In this document: positions 10,237-35,886 of the stretch, piece by piece
Position numbering within the stretch: position 1 is the first letter of the stretch
Layout: every line of letters starts with the position of its first letter
DNA from: a virus
Reading direction: 5' to 3' (one strand)
Length of the DNA: 35,886 nucleotides
Virus record (IMG/VR): IMGVR_UViG_3300028417_000003
Coordinates: 1 to 35,886 of that record
The notes under the pieces: model-generated
Told to the model about the DNA's origin: nothing
Databases searched by the model: none
The model's input: the letters and a program-made list of their open reading frames with translations, nothing else
Translations under genes and position numbers: made by a program

Positions 10237-10467
10237 TCATTTCACGCCGCCTATTTCTTCAATCGCTCTTAAAATATCTCCTGACATAACCCTTTTATGT
10301 TGACTTGCTAAGTTAACATTACCATCACTAAAAGCAAGCAAGACTATAGCAATGGTAGCAACAGTTATTTCATATTTGTCAATGGCAGGATTGTTAAATT
10401 CACTTGCAATAACCTCTGTTATCTTTTTAGTAGAAGCTACTGAACTTATTCTTTTATCGTTCATCAT
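10237..10467 (-). CDS. Hypothetical small protein
   Basis: The 76-residue product begins MMNDKRISSVASTKKITEVI and includes a hydrophobic segment (YEITVATIAIVLLAFSDG) too polar at its flanks to call a membrane helix. GGAG precedes the tandem ATG pair at a suitable distance. It is third in the leftward operon. No family was recognised. Confidence 0.6.
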   Translation of the reverse strand: MMNDKRISSVASTKKITEVIASEFNNPAIDKYEITVATIAIVLLAFSDGNVNLASQHKRVMSGDILRAIEEIGGVK

Positions 10468-10514
10468 TCATTCTCCATTGTTTATCTGATAGCTATATTT
10501 GAGATGTCTGGCAC

Positions 10515-12023: not shown

Positions 12024-12569
12024 GTGACTAAAAACAAATTAAACCAACCCACAGATAAAAGCAAGATAAATAATTTAACTCAAGAAGAGCTAAAATCTAT
12101 TTTGCATTATAATCCTAAAACTGGGATTTTCACCCGAAAAATCAGTGCAGGAGGTCGTAAGGTTGGATCTATCGCTGGGAGACCTAATAATATTGATTAT
12201 ATCAGAATTGGTATAAACGGCACTGATTATCTAGCGCATCGTTTAGCATTTTTATATATGACAGGCAGTTTTCCAAAAGACCAAGTCGACCATACAAATC
12301 AAAAGCGAAGCGATAACAGATTTGATAATTTAAGCGAATGCTCAAACCAAGAAAATGGTATGAACTGCCAACTAAGTAAGAATAACACATCAGGTTTTAA
12401 TGGGGTTTGTTTTGATGTTCCACGTAATAAATGGCAAGCGCAAATTATGGTAGATGGAAAAAGTAAACATCTTGGTAGGTTTCAAGGTTTTGAAGAAGCG
12501 GTTAGCGCACGTAAAAAAGCAAATATTAAATACGGATTTCATAAAAATCATGGTGGCGTTAATGAGTAA
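12024..12569 (+). CDS. HNH homing endonuclease with AP2-type DNA-binding domain
   Basis: Residues about 60-115 of this 181-residue protein carry the HNH_3 pattern: YLAHRLAFLYMTGSFPKD, then QVDHTNQKRSDNRFDNLSE with the metal-binding HN and H residues. Residues about 120-172 resemble an AP2 domain (SGFNGVCFDVPRNKWQAQI, then GRFQGFEEAVSARKKAN). Such free-standing enzymes cleave phage DNA at specific sites and spread by repair. The start is GTG with GAGG six bases before it. The gene has its own promoter-like motif and leader hairpin, indicating that it arrived as a cassette. No intron boundary was identified. Confidence 0.85.
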   Translation: MTKNKLNQPTDKSKINNLTQEELKSILHYNPKTGIFTRKISAGGRKVGSIAGRPNNIDYIRIGINGTDYLAHRLAFLYMTGSFPKDQVDHTNQKRSDNRFDNLSECSNQENGMNCQLSKNNTSGFNGVCFDVPRNKWQAQIMVDGKSKHLGRFQGFEEAVSARKKANIKYGFHKNHGGVNE

Positions 12570-12602: not shown

Positions 12603-12749
12603 ATGACAAAGCTTGATAGAGATCGAGATAATGCGATTTGGGTTGAATGTGAGAAAATATTAAAACGTAAGGCTCCGACATCAAATAACGATTGGTCATT
12701 TAAAACTGAAATTGTAAATCAAGCTAAATTAAACTTAGGAAAATATTGA
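12603..12749 (+). CDS. Hypothetical 48-residue protein
   Basis: The product begins MTKLDRDRDNAIWVECEKIL and ends NQAKLNLGKY. A 14-codon frame (12562-12606, MSKNRLVSEAMLFQ) overlaps both the HNH stop and this ATG by ATGA junctions, so translation could be relayed from the HNH gene. Its last 45 bases are repeated imperfectly at 15546-15590, where another frame uses them. No function was recognised. Confidence 0.5.
   Translation: MTKLDRDRDNAIWVECEKILKRKAPTSNNDWSFKTEIVNQAKLNLGKY
12705..12749 (+). repeat. Imperfect 45-base direct repeat, copy A
   Basis: This segment, around GAAATTG-Y-AAATCAAGC and its AAATTAAA continuation, recurs at 15546-15590 with roughly ten differences. Here it encodes the TEIVNQAKLNLGKY end of the 48-residue protein. 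In the second copy the same frame would read [14 protein letters not shown], but the gene there uses a different frame. Confidence 0.65.
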
Positions 12750-12854: not shown

Positions 12855-12911
12855 ATGACTAAAAAAACAATAAAGCATTATCAGAATAATTGCAAGGGGC
12901 TTCTCTTATGA
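12855..12911 (+). CDS. 18-residue leader peptide or homing-endonuclease remnant
   Basis: The peptide MTKKTIKHYQNNCKGLLL starts behind GAGGTGCTAGA. That context, and the first codons ACTAAAAA, are very similar to the start of the HNH gene at 12014-12034. Its stop overlaps the next ATG (ATGA), giving translational coupling to the PP-loop gene. It is either a functional leader peptide or the stump of a lost second HNH gene. Confidence 0.4.
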   Translation: MTKKTIKHYQNNCKGLLL

Positions 12912-13648
12912 GTAGGGTAATATCTTGGTTTTCTTGTGGTGCGGCATCAGCAATAGCTACAAAAATGCTAATTGGTGAGATTGATGTTATTGCTTATTGT
13001 GAAACAGGTGCAGAGCATGAAGATAATAAACATTTTATGGCAGATTGTGTCAGGTGGTATAATAAACCAATTAAATCAATAAAATCAGATAAATACACAG
13101 ATTTGTGGGATTGTTGGAATAAGGTTAGATACCTTGCTGGCAATAATGGTGCAAGATGCACAACAGAAATGAAAGTTAAGCCTCGCTTAAAATTTCAAAG
13201 ACCAACCGATACCCATATTTTTGGGTATACTGCAGATAAAGCTGATGTAAATAGGGCTAAGAGATTTAAGGAAAATTATTTTGAATTAAACGTCAAATTT
13301 CCTTTGATTGAAGCTGGCATAACTAAAGCCGCATGTTTGGCGATGTTGCAAACAGCAGAGATTAAAACCCCAACAATGTATAATTTAGGGTATAAAAATA
13401 ACAACTGCATACCGTGTGTGAAAGCAACATCAGCCAATTATTGGGCTTTAATAAGGGAAACACACCCAGAAGAATTTAAACGCATGGTTAAGCTTTCAAG
13501 AAAGCTAAATGTTAGATTGTGCCGAATGAACTTAACTGGTGAAATCGAAAGATATTTCATTGATGAAATACCAGCACAATATCCTACGACTAACCCGATC
13601 CAACCATCATGTGATTTTATGTGTCATTTAGTAATGAAAGATTTTTAA
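12908..13648 (+). CDS. PP-loop protein, PAPS reductase-like phage family
   Basis: ATG 12908 is preferred to the in-frame TTG at 12890 because AAGGGG lies eight bases before it. The 246-residue product begins with the nucleotide-binding P-loop-like SWFSCGAASAIA, the adenine-nucleotide alpha-hydrolase signature seen in phage PAPS reductase/DndC-type proteins. It also has ARCTTEMKVKPRLKF and a CIPCVKAT pair that could bind metal or form a redox couple. The family activates a substrate with ATP, often in sulfur transfer or nucleotide modification. The exact substrate here is unknown. A contribution to DNA or tRNA modification is possible. Confidence 0.8.
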   Translation: MSRVISWFSCGAASAIATKMLIGEIDVIAYCETGAEHEDNKHFMADCVRWYNKPIKSIKSDKYTDLWDCWNKVRYLAGNNGARCTTEMKVKPRLKFQRPTDTHIFGYTADKADVNRAKRFKENYFELNVKFPLIEAGITKAACLAMLQTAEIKTPTMYNLGYKNNNCIPCVKATSANYWALIRETHPEEFKRMVKLSRKLNVRLCRMNLTGEIERYFIDEIPAQYPTTNPIQPSCDFMCHLVMKDF

Positions 13649-14532: not shown

Positions 14533-15081
14533 ATGAAGAAAGATGAAAAAATGAAATTAAATAGATTAAGAAAACGAATAAAAAACTTAAAAGAGCAAAA
14601 GCTTTTTATGGGTGTTACTAAAGAGGATATTGAGAAGCTTCAACTTTTAATGGGTTTAGGTGAAAGGGCTTTATCACAAGTAGCTTTAGCAAATAAAATT
14701 CTTATTGATGAGAACCGTATGTTTTCAAGCCCTATGACTGGATTGATAGCTGATAGCATTGTTAAAAAAAGAATGGTTAGAGAGGGTATATTAGCTTCTA
14801 ATAAAACTGGCATGAAAGTTAAGAATTCATCATCATTCATTTATATTGTGAAGCAGGTTAATGATGATGGGTTTATAAAAATTGGGAAAGCTAATAATGT
14901 TGAACGTAGGGTTGCGAGCTTGCAAGTTGGCTCTCCTTATAAATTAAAGATTATTAAAATTATAAAAGCAAATACTTCTTCTCATGCTTTACTTATTGAG
15001 AAAGCCTTACACAGAAAGTTTAAAAAACATAAAGTGCGAGGTGAATGGTATAAATCTTGTGTTAGTGAGTGTGTTTACTAA
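14533..15081 (+). CDS. GIY-YIG family protein, T5orf172/MUG113-like
   Basis: The C-terminal half (about residues 100-178 of 182) shows the degenerate GIY-YIG pattern of the T5orf172/MUG113 group: FIYIVKQVNDDGFIKIGKAN, then NNVERRVASLQVGSP and a helix with HALLIEKALHRKF before GEWYK. The N-terminal half is helical and basic and may bind DNA. Starts at 14533 and 14551 are both possible. The gene stands alone between a promoter-like box and its own terminator, which suggests a recently acquired mobile endonuclease or moron. Endonuclease activity is expected from the family but not demonstrated. Confidence 0.8.
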   Translation: MKKDEKMKLNRLRKRIKNLKEQKLFMGVTKEDIEKLQLLMGLGERALSQVALANKILIDENRMFSSPMTGLIADSIVKKRMVREGILASNKTGMKVKNSSSFIYIVKQVNDDGFIKIGKANNVERRVASLQVGSPYKLKIIKIIKANTSSHALLIEKALHRKFKKHKVRGEWYKSCVSECVY

Positions 15082-15120: not shown

Positions 15121-15573
15121 ATGACGGATTATACAAAAATACCAGAACATAAATTAGCTGGAGAATTAGGCACTGATGCGAGCAAATGGGCTGACGCTCT
15201 TGTTCAGTATAGCATAAAACATTCATTTAATATTGATGATGAAATTTTACTAACATGGTTTGCTAATGCAATAGAAACCGCTAAGTTAGAGCCTAAATCA
15301 ATAATAGTAACAAGAAATCATGCAAAGGCTTTTATCGAAGCAATCAATCCATATGAGGTTAATTGCGGTCACAGAGAAAAAGAAAGACCTAGTGAGGCTA
15401 GAACCTTTTTAAAGGGCTTAATGGGTGTTGTTCCTGTTGAAATTTGGCATCAAAAAAAAGGCAATGAAAGTTGTGAGTTATTAGCTGATGTTTTACGCCA
15501 AATAGCGGCACATATTGAGGTTAGTGGAGAGGAATTTCAAGCACAACAGAAATTGCAAATCAAGCTAAATTAA
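15121..15573 (+). CDS. Hypothetical protein, 150 residues
   Basis: ATG 15121 is chosen because AAGGAG lies immediately upstream; a TTG at 15091 is in frame but falls in the terminator tail. The product begins MTDYTKIPEHKLAGELGTDA and is mostly helical and soluble (KWADALVQYSIKHSF, then a LLTWFANAIETAK helix). No catalytic motif is visible. Its final codons are shared with an imperfect 45-base repeat read in another frame elsewhere, so the present C-terminus (QAQQKLQIKLN) may be secondary. Confidence 0.65.
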   Translation: MTDYTKIPEHKLAGELGTDASKWADALVQYSIKHSFNIDDEILLTWFANAIETAKLEPKSIIVTRNHAKAFIEAINPYEVNCGHREKERPSEARTFLKGLMGVVPVEIWHQKKGNESCELLADVLRQIAAHIEVSGEEFQAQQKLQIKLN

Positions 15574-15590
15574 ATCTAAGGAAATTATAA
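15546..15590 (+). repeat. Imperfect 45-base direct repeat, copy B
   Basis: This copy resembles 12705-12749. It covers the end of the 150-residue gene and supplies the AAGGAAA ribosome site of the release-factor-like gene at 15592. Confidence 0.65.
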
Positions 15591-15591
15591 G

Positions 15592-15957
15592 ATGAGCAAA
15601 AAGAGATTATTATTTTCAATAACTGCTAAAGATTGCAGATTTGATTATTATCGTGGTTCTGGCGCTGGCGGGCAACATAGAAACAAAACAGACAGCGCGG
15701 TTAGATGCACTCATATCTTATCAGGAGCGGTTGGAAAATGTGAAGAGAGTAGAAGTCAGCATAAAAACAAGGCTCAAGCTTTCGGGAAAATGGCAAAGAC
15801 TAAAGAATTTCTTGCTTGGCACAAAATAGAAACTGCTAGGCTCATGGGCAAATTCGTTGGCGTTGATGAAGCAGTTGATAAAGAAATGAAGAAAATTAGA
15901 ACCGAAATTAAAGTTGATGGAAAATGGAAAATCGCCCAACCCCAAGTCAGAACATAA
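15592..15957 (+). CDS. Release-factor-like protein with GGQ peptidyl-tRNA hydrolase motif
   Basis: The 121-residue protein is essentially the catalytic domain 3 of class I release factors. It reads [18 protein letters not shown] with the invariant GGQ at residues 26-28, then [20 protein letters not shown], which matches the domain's SQHxNK element. It lacks the stop-codon recognition and switch domains, so it has the size of ArfB/YaeJ-like rescue factors. Its SGAGGQ context, however, is closer to RF1/RF2. The C-terminal 45 residues are helical and basic. A role in releasing stalled ribosomes or in tuning host translation is inferred. The ribosome site AAGGAAA comes from the repeat just upstream. 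Confidence 0.85.
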
Positions 15958-15984: not shown

Positions 15985-16191
15985 ATGGGAAGCGTTAAAG
16001 AAAACATAGAGGCTGGCAATTTTAGTTGTTCTGATTGTCAAAAAACAATTACGCAAGAAAATGATATTGTTGTTGTTAATAGAGATATTAAGGTTGGCTT
16101 TATGAGCGAGACAGAAAGGTTTATATTATGTATTTCTTGCGCGCAACTTGAAGAAGAGAACAATCAATCGAAGCTAAAGTTAAAATTATGA
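15985..16191 (+). CDS. Small zinc-ribbon-like protein
   Basis: The 68-residue product has two CxxC pairs, FSCSDCQKTI near residues 14-17 and ILCISCAQLE near residue 50, typical of a small treble-clef or zinc ribbon. Between them lies a beta segment (NDIVVVNRDIKVG). AAGGAGATAG precedes the ATG. Its stop overlaps the methyltransferase start by ATGA. Its partner is unknown; it may bind nucleic acid. Confidence 0.6.
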   Translation: MGSVKENIEAGNFSCSDCQKTITQENDIVVVNRDIKVGFMSETERFILCISCAQLEEENNQSKLKLKL

Positions 16192-16784
16192 AAGGCTTAA
16201 AGGTAATATCACTTTTTGACGGAATGGCTGGGGGCATGCAAGCATTGAAAATGGCTAATATTCCAGTGTCAGAATATCATGCTTTTGAGATAGACCCATA
16301 CGCTATAAAAGTAGCAAAACACAATCACCCTGGAATAATTCATCATGGTTCGGTTGTTGATTTTGACTTCACACAATTCAAAGATGTTGATTTGTTAATA
16401 GGCGGTTCACCATGCACAGGCTTTTCTAGGGCTGGCAAAGGATTAAATTTTGACGATCCACAATCAAAGCTATTTTTTGACTTTGTGCGTGCAAAAGAAG
16501 AAATGAAACCGAAAAGATTTAGTGATTGTAAGAAGTTTTACACGTTAACCGCTCAAGATAAGCATGGTGTTTTAATTGAGGGCTATATAAGAAAGCTAAC
16601 GCCAATAGAATGCTTGAGATTGCAAAGCTTCACTGATAATTGTTTAGATGTTGATGGGATAAGCAATGCGCAAAAATATCGCATGACAGGTAACGGGTGG
16701 AACATTGAAGTAATAACGCATAATTTGAACGAAATGAAATTAAACAAACCACCTGCTGCATTTCAGCTATCAATGGAAATATAG
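16188..16784 (+). CDS. C5-cytosine DNA methyltransferase with internal deletion
   Basis: The 198-residue product has motif I (ISLFDGMAGG, residues 7-16), motif II around FEIDPYA and the catalytic loop GGSPCTGFSRAG with C76. It then passes abruptly near residues 109-113 (MKPKRFSDCKKFY) to C-terminal elements: YTLTAQDKHGVL, IRKLTPIECLRLQ (motif IX) and GNGWNIEVI (motif X). The segment that should carry the ENV glutamate (motif VI), motif VIII arginines and the target-recognition domain is absent while the frame is kept. Phage enzymes of this type are usually clearly longer. As written it should not methylate DNA. In-frame deletion and assembly collapse are both possible. Confidence 0.8.
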   Translation: MKGLKVISLFDGMAGGMQALKMANIPVSEYHAFEIDPYAIKVAKHNHPGIIHHGSVVDFDFTQFKDVDLLIGGSPCTGFSRAGKGLNFDDPQSKLFFDFVRAKEEMKPKRFSDCKKFYTLTAQDKHGVLIEGYIRKLTPIECLRLQSFTDNCLDVDGISNAQKYRMTGNGWNIEVITHNLNEMKLNKPPAAFQLSMEI

Positions 16785-16792
16785 GAGAATGA

Positions 16793-17338
16793 ATGATGAA
16801 GTGTAAAGCTAGTGACATTGTAGAAGCTCTAATTAAGCGCGCTAAAGAAAGTGATTTGATATGGGTTGAAGAGCTTAGACTAAATAGTGGCTCTAGCAGG
16901 GTTGATTTTTGGACAATGAAACCTCACGCTAGCACTGGATTTAATGCAGTTTCTTATGAGATAAAAGTAAGCAAACAGGATTTCAAAAAAGACAGCTTAG
17001 AAAAACAAACGCAGGCGCTTTCTTTTTGTGACAAATTTTATTTCGTCATGCCTGTTGGTTTGATTGATAAATCAGAAATACCAGAATGGGCAGGGTTAAT
17101 TGAATATAATGGTTTGTTAAAAGTGGTAAAGCGAGCGCCTAAGAAAGAACAAAAGAGCCACCCTAATTGGGATTTTGTCACTTCAATTTTAAGAAATAGT
17201 GCAAAATTCGGGCGGGATACTGATATTTTTAGAAAACAAATTTCAGATTTGCAGGTTAATCTAGCGCAAGAAAAAAGAGAAACAGTTATTTTCAAAAGAT
17301 TATATGAGAGATCTGTTGAAAAAATACAAGGAGAATAG
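16793..17338 (+). CDS. PD-(D/E)XK-type (MmcB-like) nuclease-fold protein
   Basis: The pattern SSRVDFWTMKP followed by AVSYEIKVSKQDFKKD fits the D...ExK core of restriction-endonuclease-fold proteins, as in the MmcB DNA-repair family (D at about residue 38, E-I-K at about 62-64). A conserved FYFVMPVGLIDKSEIPEWAG strand-helix follows. The C-terminal 50 residues form a likely coiled coil. It follows the methyltransferase by eight bases, with GGAG as ribosome site, so a modification/repair pairing is suggestive. Catalysis is not certain. Confidence 0.7.
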   Translation: MMKCKASDIVEALIKRAKESDLIWVEELRLNSGSSRVDFWTMKPHASTGFNAVSYEIKVSKQDFKKDSLEKQTQALSFCDKFYFVMPVGLIDKSEIPEWAGLIEYNGLLKVVKRAPKKEQKSHPNWDFVTSILRNSAKFGRDTDIFRKQISDLQVNLAQEKRETVIFKRLYERSVEKIQGE

Positions 17339-33762: not shown

Positions 33763-35765
33763 TGTCAAAACTTGAACAATTCAGAGAGCAGTATCCTCAA
33801 TACAATGATGTTAATGACATTGATTTAGCTGTTGCGTTGCATAAAAAATCATATTCAACAACGCCCATAGACCAATATATGGATAAATTAGGCGTTGGTT
33901 ATCAAAATTCACTTTATGAAACTCGTTCTAAAGATAGTATTTCTGGGGATTATATCCGTGAGCGAGCAGAAATAACAAGGACACAAGAACAAACAAGTGG
34001 TTCTATTAACAAAGAGGCGCAAGCAGGACGTGCGGAGGGAATTGGAAGGGCTGGCTTGCAAGGCGCAACATTTGGTTTTGGCGATGAGGTGGTGGCAGGT
34101 GGAGCTGCACTTCTAGCGCCTCTTACAGGTCAGGGGCAAGGCAAGGACTTAGGAGAACGCTATAGAGCATATCTTGGGAGAGAACGTGGACGACTAGGTG
34201 AATTCAGAAAAACTAATCCTATTGCAGCTTATGGTTCAGAAATTGCAGGAGCAATCCCAACTGCTATTATTGGCGGTGGTCAATTAGCAGGGCGCGGTGC
34301 GACTATTGGTCAAAGAGCTTTATCTGGCATGGCTGTTGGCAGTGGACAAGGCGCAGTTTACGGTGGCGGTGCGGCTGATGAAAATAGATTAAAAGGTGCA
34401 GCAGTTGGCGGCACAACAGGCGCAGTATTGGGCGGAGGATTTCCTTATATTGGACGTGGATTACAAAAAGCTGGACGAGTTATTGGCATTGGCAAAACGC
34501 CCAGAGGTATAGCGCCTCTTTCTAGGGCGTTAGCTGATGATGATATTGCGGTTAATCAAATAGGGCAAAGACTTGGTGATATTGGCGAGGGTGCAACAGT
34601 AACAGATTTAGGGGCTAATTTACAACGTCAAGCTGGCGCTTTAGCCGCGCAACCTGGAAAAGCGCAAAAAATCATTAGAGATGCTATAACACAAAGAACG
34701 GCTGGGCGCTCAGGACGAGTAGCACAAGATTTATCAAGAACGGTTGGTTCGACAAAACCAGCATTTTCAATTGCCGATGATATTGCTAGGGAACAAAGTC
34801 AAACCGCTAAACCTCTCTATGATGCGGTTAGACCAGTTTTAGTTGATGTTGGTGATAACATTAAAGATGTTCTTTCTTCGCACTTTGGCAAGTCTGCACT
34901 TCGTAAGGCGGCAAGAGTTAGCGCGGTTAATGCTGACGATGCAGGGCGTATGACTGTTGGCGCACTAGATCAAGTTAAACAATCTCTTGATGATATGGCG
35001 AGTGCGGCACAAAGAGCAGGGCGCAATAACGAGGCAAGAGTGATTGGCAATTTGTCACGTCAGCTAAGAACTGCTGTTGATGAGCAAGTTCCAAGCTATG
35101 GACAGGCTAGAGAAGCGTTTGCAGGTTATGCTGCTGTTAAAGATGCTCTCGAAACTGGCACTGATGTATTTAAAAGCAATCTTCATCCAAATCAATTACG
35201 CCAAATCATGCAAAAAATGACATCGAGTGAACGTGAGGCATTAGTCAAAGGCGCTCAATCATCAATTCAAGATATGATGGGTAATATTTCTAATGATGCG
35301 CTTAAATTGCGCAATATGTTTAATAAATCGTATAATTTAGAAAAATTGCGCTTACTTATTGGCGATGATGCAGCAAATGCGCTTGTTAAAAATATTCAAC
35401 GAGAAGCAACTTTTGGACAAACTGCTGGTGTGGTGACTGCTAATTCTGAAACAGCGGCAAGAGCTGCTGCTATGGCAGAGGTAGCGCCTAAGCAATCTTT
35501 AATTCAGGATATAGGCAATCTTAAATTCGGTGATATTGCTGCAAGAATGGGTGGTAAAGTTTTTGGCAAAGCTTCACAAGCAAGACAAAGCGTAAAAAAT
35601 GAGGCTTTAGCTAATATGCTTATGTCAAGGCAACCAAATCAACAAACTATTCAATCGCTTCTCACGTTGCAAAACGCGCAAAAAGGCATTGTGCCACAAG
35701 GAGCAATAGAAAAAGCATTGCTAAGACTTCCAGCGCCAATTGCTGGCATATCTGGTGGGCGTTAA
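33762..35765 (+). CDS. Large ejection/internal virion protein 3
   Basis: The 667-residue protein has a polar N-terminus. A Gly/Ala-rich, glycine-zipper-like region follows (about 90-250: GLQGATFGFGDEVVAGGAAL, AGAIPTAIIGGGQLAGRGAT, GAAVGGTTGAVLGGGFPYIG), then long helical domains to the end. Glycine-zipper segments can insert in membranes and are common in phage ejection proteins that form a trans-envelope channel. It is the last late gene before the circular junction, and its stop overlaps the stop of the minus-strand membrane protein. Channel function is inferred. Confidence 0.7.
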   Translation: MSKLEQFREQYPQYNDVNDIDLAVALHKKSYSTTPIDQYMDKLGVGYQNSLYETRSKDSISGDYIRERAEITRTQEQTSGSINKEAQAGRAEGIGRAGLQGATFGFGDEVVAGGAALLAPLTGQGQGKDLGERYRAYLGRERGRLGEFRKTNPIAAYGSEIAGAIPTAIIGGGQLAGRGATIGQRALSGMAVGSGQGAVYGGGAADENRLKGAAVGGTTGAVLGGGFPYIGRGLQKAGRVIGIGKTPRGIAPLSRALADDDIAVNQIGQRLGDIGEGATVTDLGANLQRQAGALAAQPGKAQKIIRDAITQRTAGRSGRVAQDLSRTVGSTKPAFSIADDIAREQSQTAKPLYDAVRPVLVDVGDNIKDVLSSHFGKSALRKAARVSAVNADDAGRMTVGALDQVKQSLDDMASAAQRAGRNNEARVIGNLSRQLRTAVDEQVPSYGQAREAFAGYAAVKDALETGTDVFKSNLHPNQLRQIMQKMTSSEREALVKGAQSSIQDMMGNISNDALKLRNMFNKSYNLEKLRLLIGDDAANALVKNIQREATFGQTAGVVTANSETAARAAAMAEVAPKQSLIQDIGNLKFGDIAARMGGKVFGKASQARQSVKNEALANMLMSRQPNQQTIQSLLTLQNAQKGIVPQGAIEKALLRLPAPIAGISGGR

Positions 35766-35886
35766 TCTTTGTCTAAATGAAGTTTTGGAAAACACAGAAT
35801 TAAAGCAAATCCTGTCATAATACCACAGATAAGCAAAAACCATGTTGAGGGATTAGTTAGCCCATTACCTAATGCGCCAACGAATG
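35760..35886. repeat. Right copy of 127-bp exact terminal direct repeat
   Basis: This copy is identical to bases 1-127. Base 35760 corresponds to base 1, so the end of the last ejection-protein gene (stop at 35763-35765) falls on bases 4-6 of the left end. Everything after 35765 repeats the 3' part of the small minus-strand membrane protein gene at 3-212. Confidence 0.95.

Follow-up and report, generated by a model that had tools for sequence, protein, structure and literature searches.

A phage C5-cytosine methyltransferase gene lacking motif VI through the target-recognition domain, probably owing to a recent in-frame deletion

Introduction

The sequence analyzed here, hereafter the window, is a 35,886-nt stretch covering positions 1 to 35,886 of the viral record IMGVR_UViG_3300028417_000003. 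One of its open reading frames (ORFs) resembles a C5-cytosine methyltransferase at both ends and lacks the middle of such an enzyme. This introduces the question of whether the ORF is the remnant of a deleted gene, a short protein retained for another role, one half of a split enzyme, or an error of assembly. The features of the locus are given in Table 1.

Table 1. Coordinates of the methyltransferase ORF, its retained parts and its neighbors in the window
Feature	Position	Strand	Evidence
C5-cytosine methyltransferase ORF, 198 aa, putatively internally deleted	16188..16784	+	Pfam and profile search
N-terminal retained part, residues 1-109: motif I, motif IV with Cys76, DPQSKLFF, up to KPK	16188..16514	+	
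Putative deletion junction, K109-R110-F111; either side could have contributed F111 and some of the A-run	16512..16520	+	
C-terminal retained part, residues 110-198, comprising the TRD-region end (RFSDCKKFYTLTAQDKHGVLIEGYIRK) and motifs IX and X (the latter GNGW)	16515..16781	+	
Small upstream ORF, 68 aa; zinc-ribbon matches below threshold only	15985..16191	+	
MmcB-like (DNA repair protein-type) gene downstream of the methyltransferase ORF	16793..17338	+	

Results

Retained and missing motifs

As the original prediction had stated, the ORF is in frame and translatable: it lies on the plus strand, begins with ATG and encodes 198 amino acids without an internal stop. The Pfam family DNA_methylase (PF00145) matches it in two stretches (E = 4.9e-32), and PHROGs assigns it to the DNA methyltransferase family phrog_116 (E = 1.4e-46). 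Under the motif names I to X of the C5-methyltransferase literature, the protein keeps the SAM-binding motif I (LFDGMAGG, of the FxGxG type), motif IV (GGSPCTGFS, the PC of which holds the catalytic cysteine, Cys76) and motif V, as well as motif IX (RKLTPIEC; RKLTPIECLRLQ) and motif X (GNGW). Motif VI (ENV), motif VII, motif VIII (QxRxR) and the whole target-recognition domain (TRD) are absent, and a simple (L)LENV-type pattern for motif VI, matched by 153 of 160 relatives, does not match the window protein.

We also compared the protein with a profile of 396 positions built from 11 relatives, with the window protein left out. The profile hits it as two pieces, at positions 4-110 and 311-379, with nothing between them. 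Both pieces likewise align to M.HhaI, residues 2-110 with HhaI 10-115 and residues 126-178 with HhaI 263-313, and HhaI residues from approximately 116 to 255 have no counterpart. The latter stretch includes Glu119 and the TRD. These two-piece matches to Pfam, to the profile and to M.HhaI bear out the earlier claim that motifs I, IV and IX-X were kept while the ENV glutamate and the TRD were lost.

A comparison with full-length relatives had also been proposed. In eight of 11 same-subfamily relatives, those in which both edges could be located, the stretch missing from the window protein measures 178, 187, 189, 190, 196, 197, 197 and 211 aa. Croceibacter phage P2559Y gp41 (L018) and the viral contigs L268 and L269, all full-length, have the same N-terminal motifs, TRD end and motifs IX and X as the window protein; however, they also have motif VI, motif VIII and the TRD, whereas the window protein lacks the approximately 178-211 aa between.

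Position of the junction

On the upstream side, KPK[YK]F followed by LLENV is the reading in many relatives. Among the 153 relatives (n = 160) that match the pattern, (L)LENV is preceded by YF in 90 cases and by KF in 23. On the downstream side, the window sequence RFSDCKKFYTLTAQDKHGVLIEGYIRKLTPIEC fits the subfamily pattern QNGQRF[NS][DEN]G.KFYTLTAQD, with QRF present in all 11 same-subfamily relatives. Therefore, the join is placed at K109-R110-F111. The original prediction had named residues 109-113, and a direct join does lie there; however, residues 112-113 (SD) fall on the downstream side rather than forming a linker.

Judging from the relatives, the flanks have only a few bases in common at the junction. 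The F codon common to both sides and the A-run (window CCGAAAAGATTTAGT) may have provided the short matches at which the deletion arose.

Survey for other short forms

To place this architecture among its relatives, we surveyed 185 loci, which yielded 179 methyltransferase ORFs with both halves. The gap between the halves is 27 aa in the window, and in none of the remaining 178 ORFs is it shorter than 97 aa, the length of the next shortest; thus, the gap is no chance misreading. A scan with the junction pattern, in a set of viral contigs that may lack near-identical records, gave no matches, so no sister sequence sharing the junction was found there. The short architecture itself was also sought in viral contigs with two pattern scans, which gave no matches either, at an estimated sensitivity of approximately 44%: judged by codon use at two motifs they would catch 31 + 39 = 70 of the 160 relatives, and they are blind to other codons or to a gap outside 141-201 nt. 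In a phage collection with 508 matching records, none of the matches listed (40, and a spread of 60) had both halves at the spacing seen in the window. The portion of the literature covered, mostly outside subscription journals, describes no naturally occurring C5 methyltransferase without the segment from motif VI to the TRD.

Several candidate short forms were rejected. At viral locus L044 and genome loci L122 and L131 the match table had spanned tandem methyltransferases, and every gene was full length on opening; viral locus L054 resolved into the same kind of full-length ORF pair in the ORF survey; and a tblastn hit on a Proteus plasmid (H52) sits inside a 981-nt (326-codon) methyltransferase gene. 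L044 (1424-4088) is itself a viral contig with three tandem C5 methyltransferase genes.

In the Vibrio phages ICP1_2006_E (L016) and vB_Vp_PvVp04_M, the N- and C-terminal halves lie in two ORFs. This arrangement was observed at L016, L017, L117, L134, L156, L127 and L171, which represent frameshifted genes, split genes or sequencing errors. Such split-ORF relatives suggest that a broken gene of this methyltransferase family is not rare in phages.

Genomic setting and accessory status

The methyltransferase start overlaps the upstream ORF by 4 nt (ATGA, 16188-16191), and the MmcB-like gene starts 8 nt past the methyltransferase stop, without overlap. Of the operon overlaps that had been described as preserved, then, the upstream one stands and the downstream one does not. 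The kept overlap is no argument for function because it sits outside the deleted part, and the intact frame points to function only weakly, since chance alone preserves it in one deletion out of three. Codon use and GC content by position within the ORF do not depart from the range seen in 26 other genes of the window, and are uninformative. Rfam gave no match anywhere in the window.

Among 80 viral loci found by their terminase (57-66% identity), some of them too short to show a methyltransferase, none carries this methyltransferase type, and L254 carries a distant one. This suggests that the gene is accessory. Methyltransferases that phages carry as accessory genes commonly protect them from restriction by the host, and loss of the gene would therefore be tolerable in hosts without the matching restriction enzyme. 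The MmcB-like neighbor has one viral relative, L266, in which none of the ORFs listed across 3.5-8.5 kb is C5-methyltransferase-like; methyltransferase models run on loci L186 to L266 found none, save the distant one in L254. As far as these sequences go, there is no conserved pairing of the MmcB-like gene with the methyltransferase.

The ends of the record are identical over 127 nt (1-127 = 35760-35886). This suggests that it is probably a complete circular genome, assembled with a k-mer near 127, and the genome does look complete, at about 35.76 kb. The record carries genes for terminase, portal, scaffold, major head, tape-measure-like, endolysin, RecT and exonuclease proteins. Its portal and head proteins are near those of podoviruses such as EBPR podovirus 2, and their other best matches include Rhizobium phage RHph_I1_23 and Sinorhizobium phage phiM5.

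Age of the deletion

Next to the junction, residues 110-142 are identical to L268 at 32 of 33 positions, which indicates that the deletion is probably recent. Of the 24 columns with at least 95% conservation across the 160 relatives, none is changed in the window protein and, given also the match to L268, little appears to have changed since the deletion. At a threshold of 90% or more, seven of 48 columns are changed, a score that 12 of the 160 relatives equal or exceed.

The C half (72 residues) averages 67% identity to 10 subfamily relatives, compared with 81% among them, and the N half 53% compared with 60%. The departure is larger after residue 142, with E143L and several changes at 143-153. 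Part of it is common to Phocaeicola phage BV741P2 (DGIS, GNGWNIE), so some of the departure probably predates the deletion. The divergence past residue 142 could also be read in part as relaxed constraint, and hence as a sign of an older deletion. With its essential parts lost, the rest little changed and no short form found in the surveyed relatives or, at approximately 44% sensitivity, in the scanned viral contigs, the locus has the appearance of a recently inactivated gene.

Predicted fold and activity of the product

The AlphaFold2 model of the window protein is compact (mean pLDDT 80.7, pTM 0.78), with weak confidence around residues 111-130; the intact control L051 gave a mean pLDDT of 84.2 and a pTM of 0.83. 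Where the control has the motif VI strand (107-113), the window model has only a short strand at 110-113, and nothing in it corresponds to the control strands 132-135 and 145-150. The 198-aa product may fold, although the full-length relatives in the alignment may flatter the model relative to the actual protein. Among the 50 matches listed, DNMT3-type catalytic domains are the closest solved folds (TM 0.66-0.74 by the length of the window protein), a match that homology predicts.

Given the known C5 mechanism, the product is predicted to be unable to methylate DNA, because it has lost the ENV glutamate, Q-x-R-x-R and the TRD. The same missing parts (ENV, motif VIII and TRD) lend support, at the level of sequence, to the earlier suggestion of an inactive protein. 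For M.SssI, the truncated fragments assayed are reported to have had no activity by themselves (PMC3404938).

Discussion

On the present evidence, we consider it probable that this ORF arose when an ordinary C5-cytosine methyltransferase, an accessory gene of the phage, underwent one recent deletion that kept the frame, and that its product is inert and in early decay. In such a scheme, the gene would have lost approximately 180-210 residues (approximately 535-635 bp, estimated from relatives), and thus its middle third or more, in a single, probably recent, frame-keeping event. The deletion would have arisen between short matching bases, in the A-run and/or TTT. The product would still be translated, as an inert remnant against which selection is absent or weak.

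Two alternatives concern the integrity of the gene and of its record. The original prediction had raised a collapsed assembly, and an assembly artefact or a minor deletion variant, with most virions carrying a longer intact gene, would fit a locus known from a single contig, with no sister sequence sharing its junction among the viral contigs scanned. However, a k-mer collapse requires a shared stretch about as long as k, for which the exact 127-nt end overlap suggests a value near 127, whereas the junction flanks are alike over a few bases only. Repeat collapse would therefore not be expected, and the joined frame is clean. A minor deletion variant is conceivable; taken as a whole, we regard this alternative as unlikely. 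It is far harder to maintain that the protein is one part of a split enzyme and depends on a second chain for completion. C5 enzymes made of two polypeptides are known, as is complementation between fragments (PMC3404938), and Vibrio phage ICP1 is among the relatives with a broken methyltransferase ORF. The same source describes M.AquI and M.EcoHK31I, which like the window protein consist of single chains that are incomplete. In those systems, however, a second gene supplies the missing parts, and none was found in the window record: a six-frame profile search of the whole record with filters off, which might overlook a stand-alone TRD of unknown type, recovered no second C5 methyltransferase and no motif VI-VIII fragment (next-best E = 2.2). 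The idea of a separate subunit thus finds no partner in any frame. Moreover, the missing part is an internal block, and a partner would have to insert the motif VI-VIII strands into the sheet of the chain, unlike the known pairs as that report presents them (PMC3404938). We consider completion in trans extremely improbable.

The remaining alternative is that the short protein has kept a non-catalytic job, such as SAM binding, or pairs with an intact C5 methyltransferase of the host or a phage, which it would assist or dominantly inhibit in the way of mammalian DNMT3L or the inactive isoforms of DNMT3B. DNMT3L and the inactive DNMT3B isoforms are conserved and functional in animals; in contrast, the window form is a singleton. 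They are likewise naturally shortened, non-catalytic relatives of C5 methyltransferases, and the inactive DNMT3B isoforms are reported to act as accessory proteins that stimulate methylation (PMC4853477). The 24 columns at or above 95% conservation show no change, the predicted model is compact, and the nearest folds among the matches listed are DNMT3A/3B/3L complexes; the intact conserved residues and the open frame fit retained function as well as they fit a recent event. However, recency alone accounts for the intact residues, and the DNMT3 fold match is a consequence of homology, drawn from a model that leans on full-length relatives in its alignment. In addition, the short form occurs in no other surveyed phage or prophage, and the record holds no second C5 methyltransferase. 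A retained non-catalytic job seems to us unlikely. A decoy or DNA-binding role, which the original prediction had raised, is conceivable but gained no positive support. The stronger version, in which a minimised C5-methyltransferase fold is kept as a SAM-pocket protein that partners, or dominantly interferes with, the methyltransferase of the host or of a competing phage, would be more improbable still.

If the recent deletion is indeed the explanation, the locus would represent the loss of a phage accessory gene caught early, with the catalytic glutamate and the recognition domain lost and much else little changed. It would also call for caution in annotation, since family searches still name the 198-aa ORF a DNA methyltransferase, although methylation would not be expected of it. 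If instead the short protein were kept and functional, the C5-methyltransferase fold would be reusable without catalysis in a phage.

Other features of the record

Several further observations concern the surroundings of the locus. An RF-1 domain protein of 121 aa with a GGQ motif is encoded at 15592-15957 (+) (Pfam E = 7.3e-21; phrog_3122), and presumably resembles ribosome-rescue factors of the ArfB/ICT1 type. A phosphoadenosine phosphosulfate (PAPS) reductase-like gene lies at 12890-13648 (+) (phrog_424, E = 1.2e-40). An HNH endonuclease gene with a weak AP2 match (12024-12569) and a T5orf172/GIY-YIG-type gene (14533-15081) are likely to be two mobile endonucleases within 3.1 kb. A direct repeat of 41 nt, 85% identical (12704-12744 and 15545-15585, 2.8 kb apart), flanks the PAPS reductase/GIY-YIG region. 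Finally, GGAGAATGAATGATGAA occurs identically at 16777-16807 (+) and 10453-10483 (-), at the starts of two opposite-strand genes, so that a ribosome-binding/start context looks to have been duplicated.
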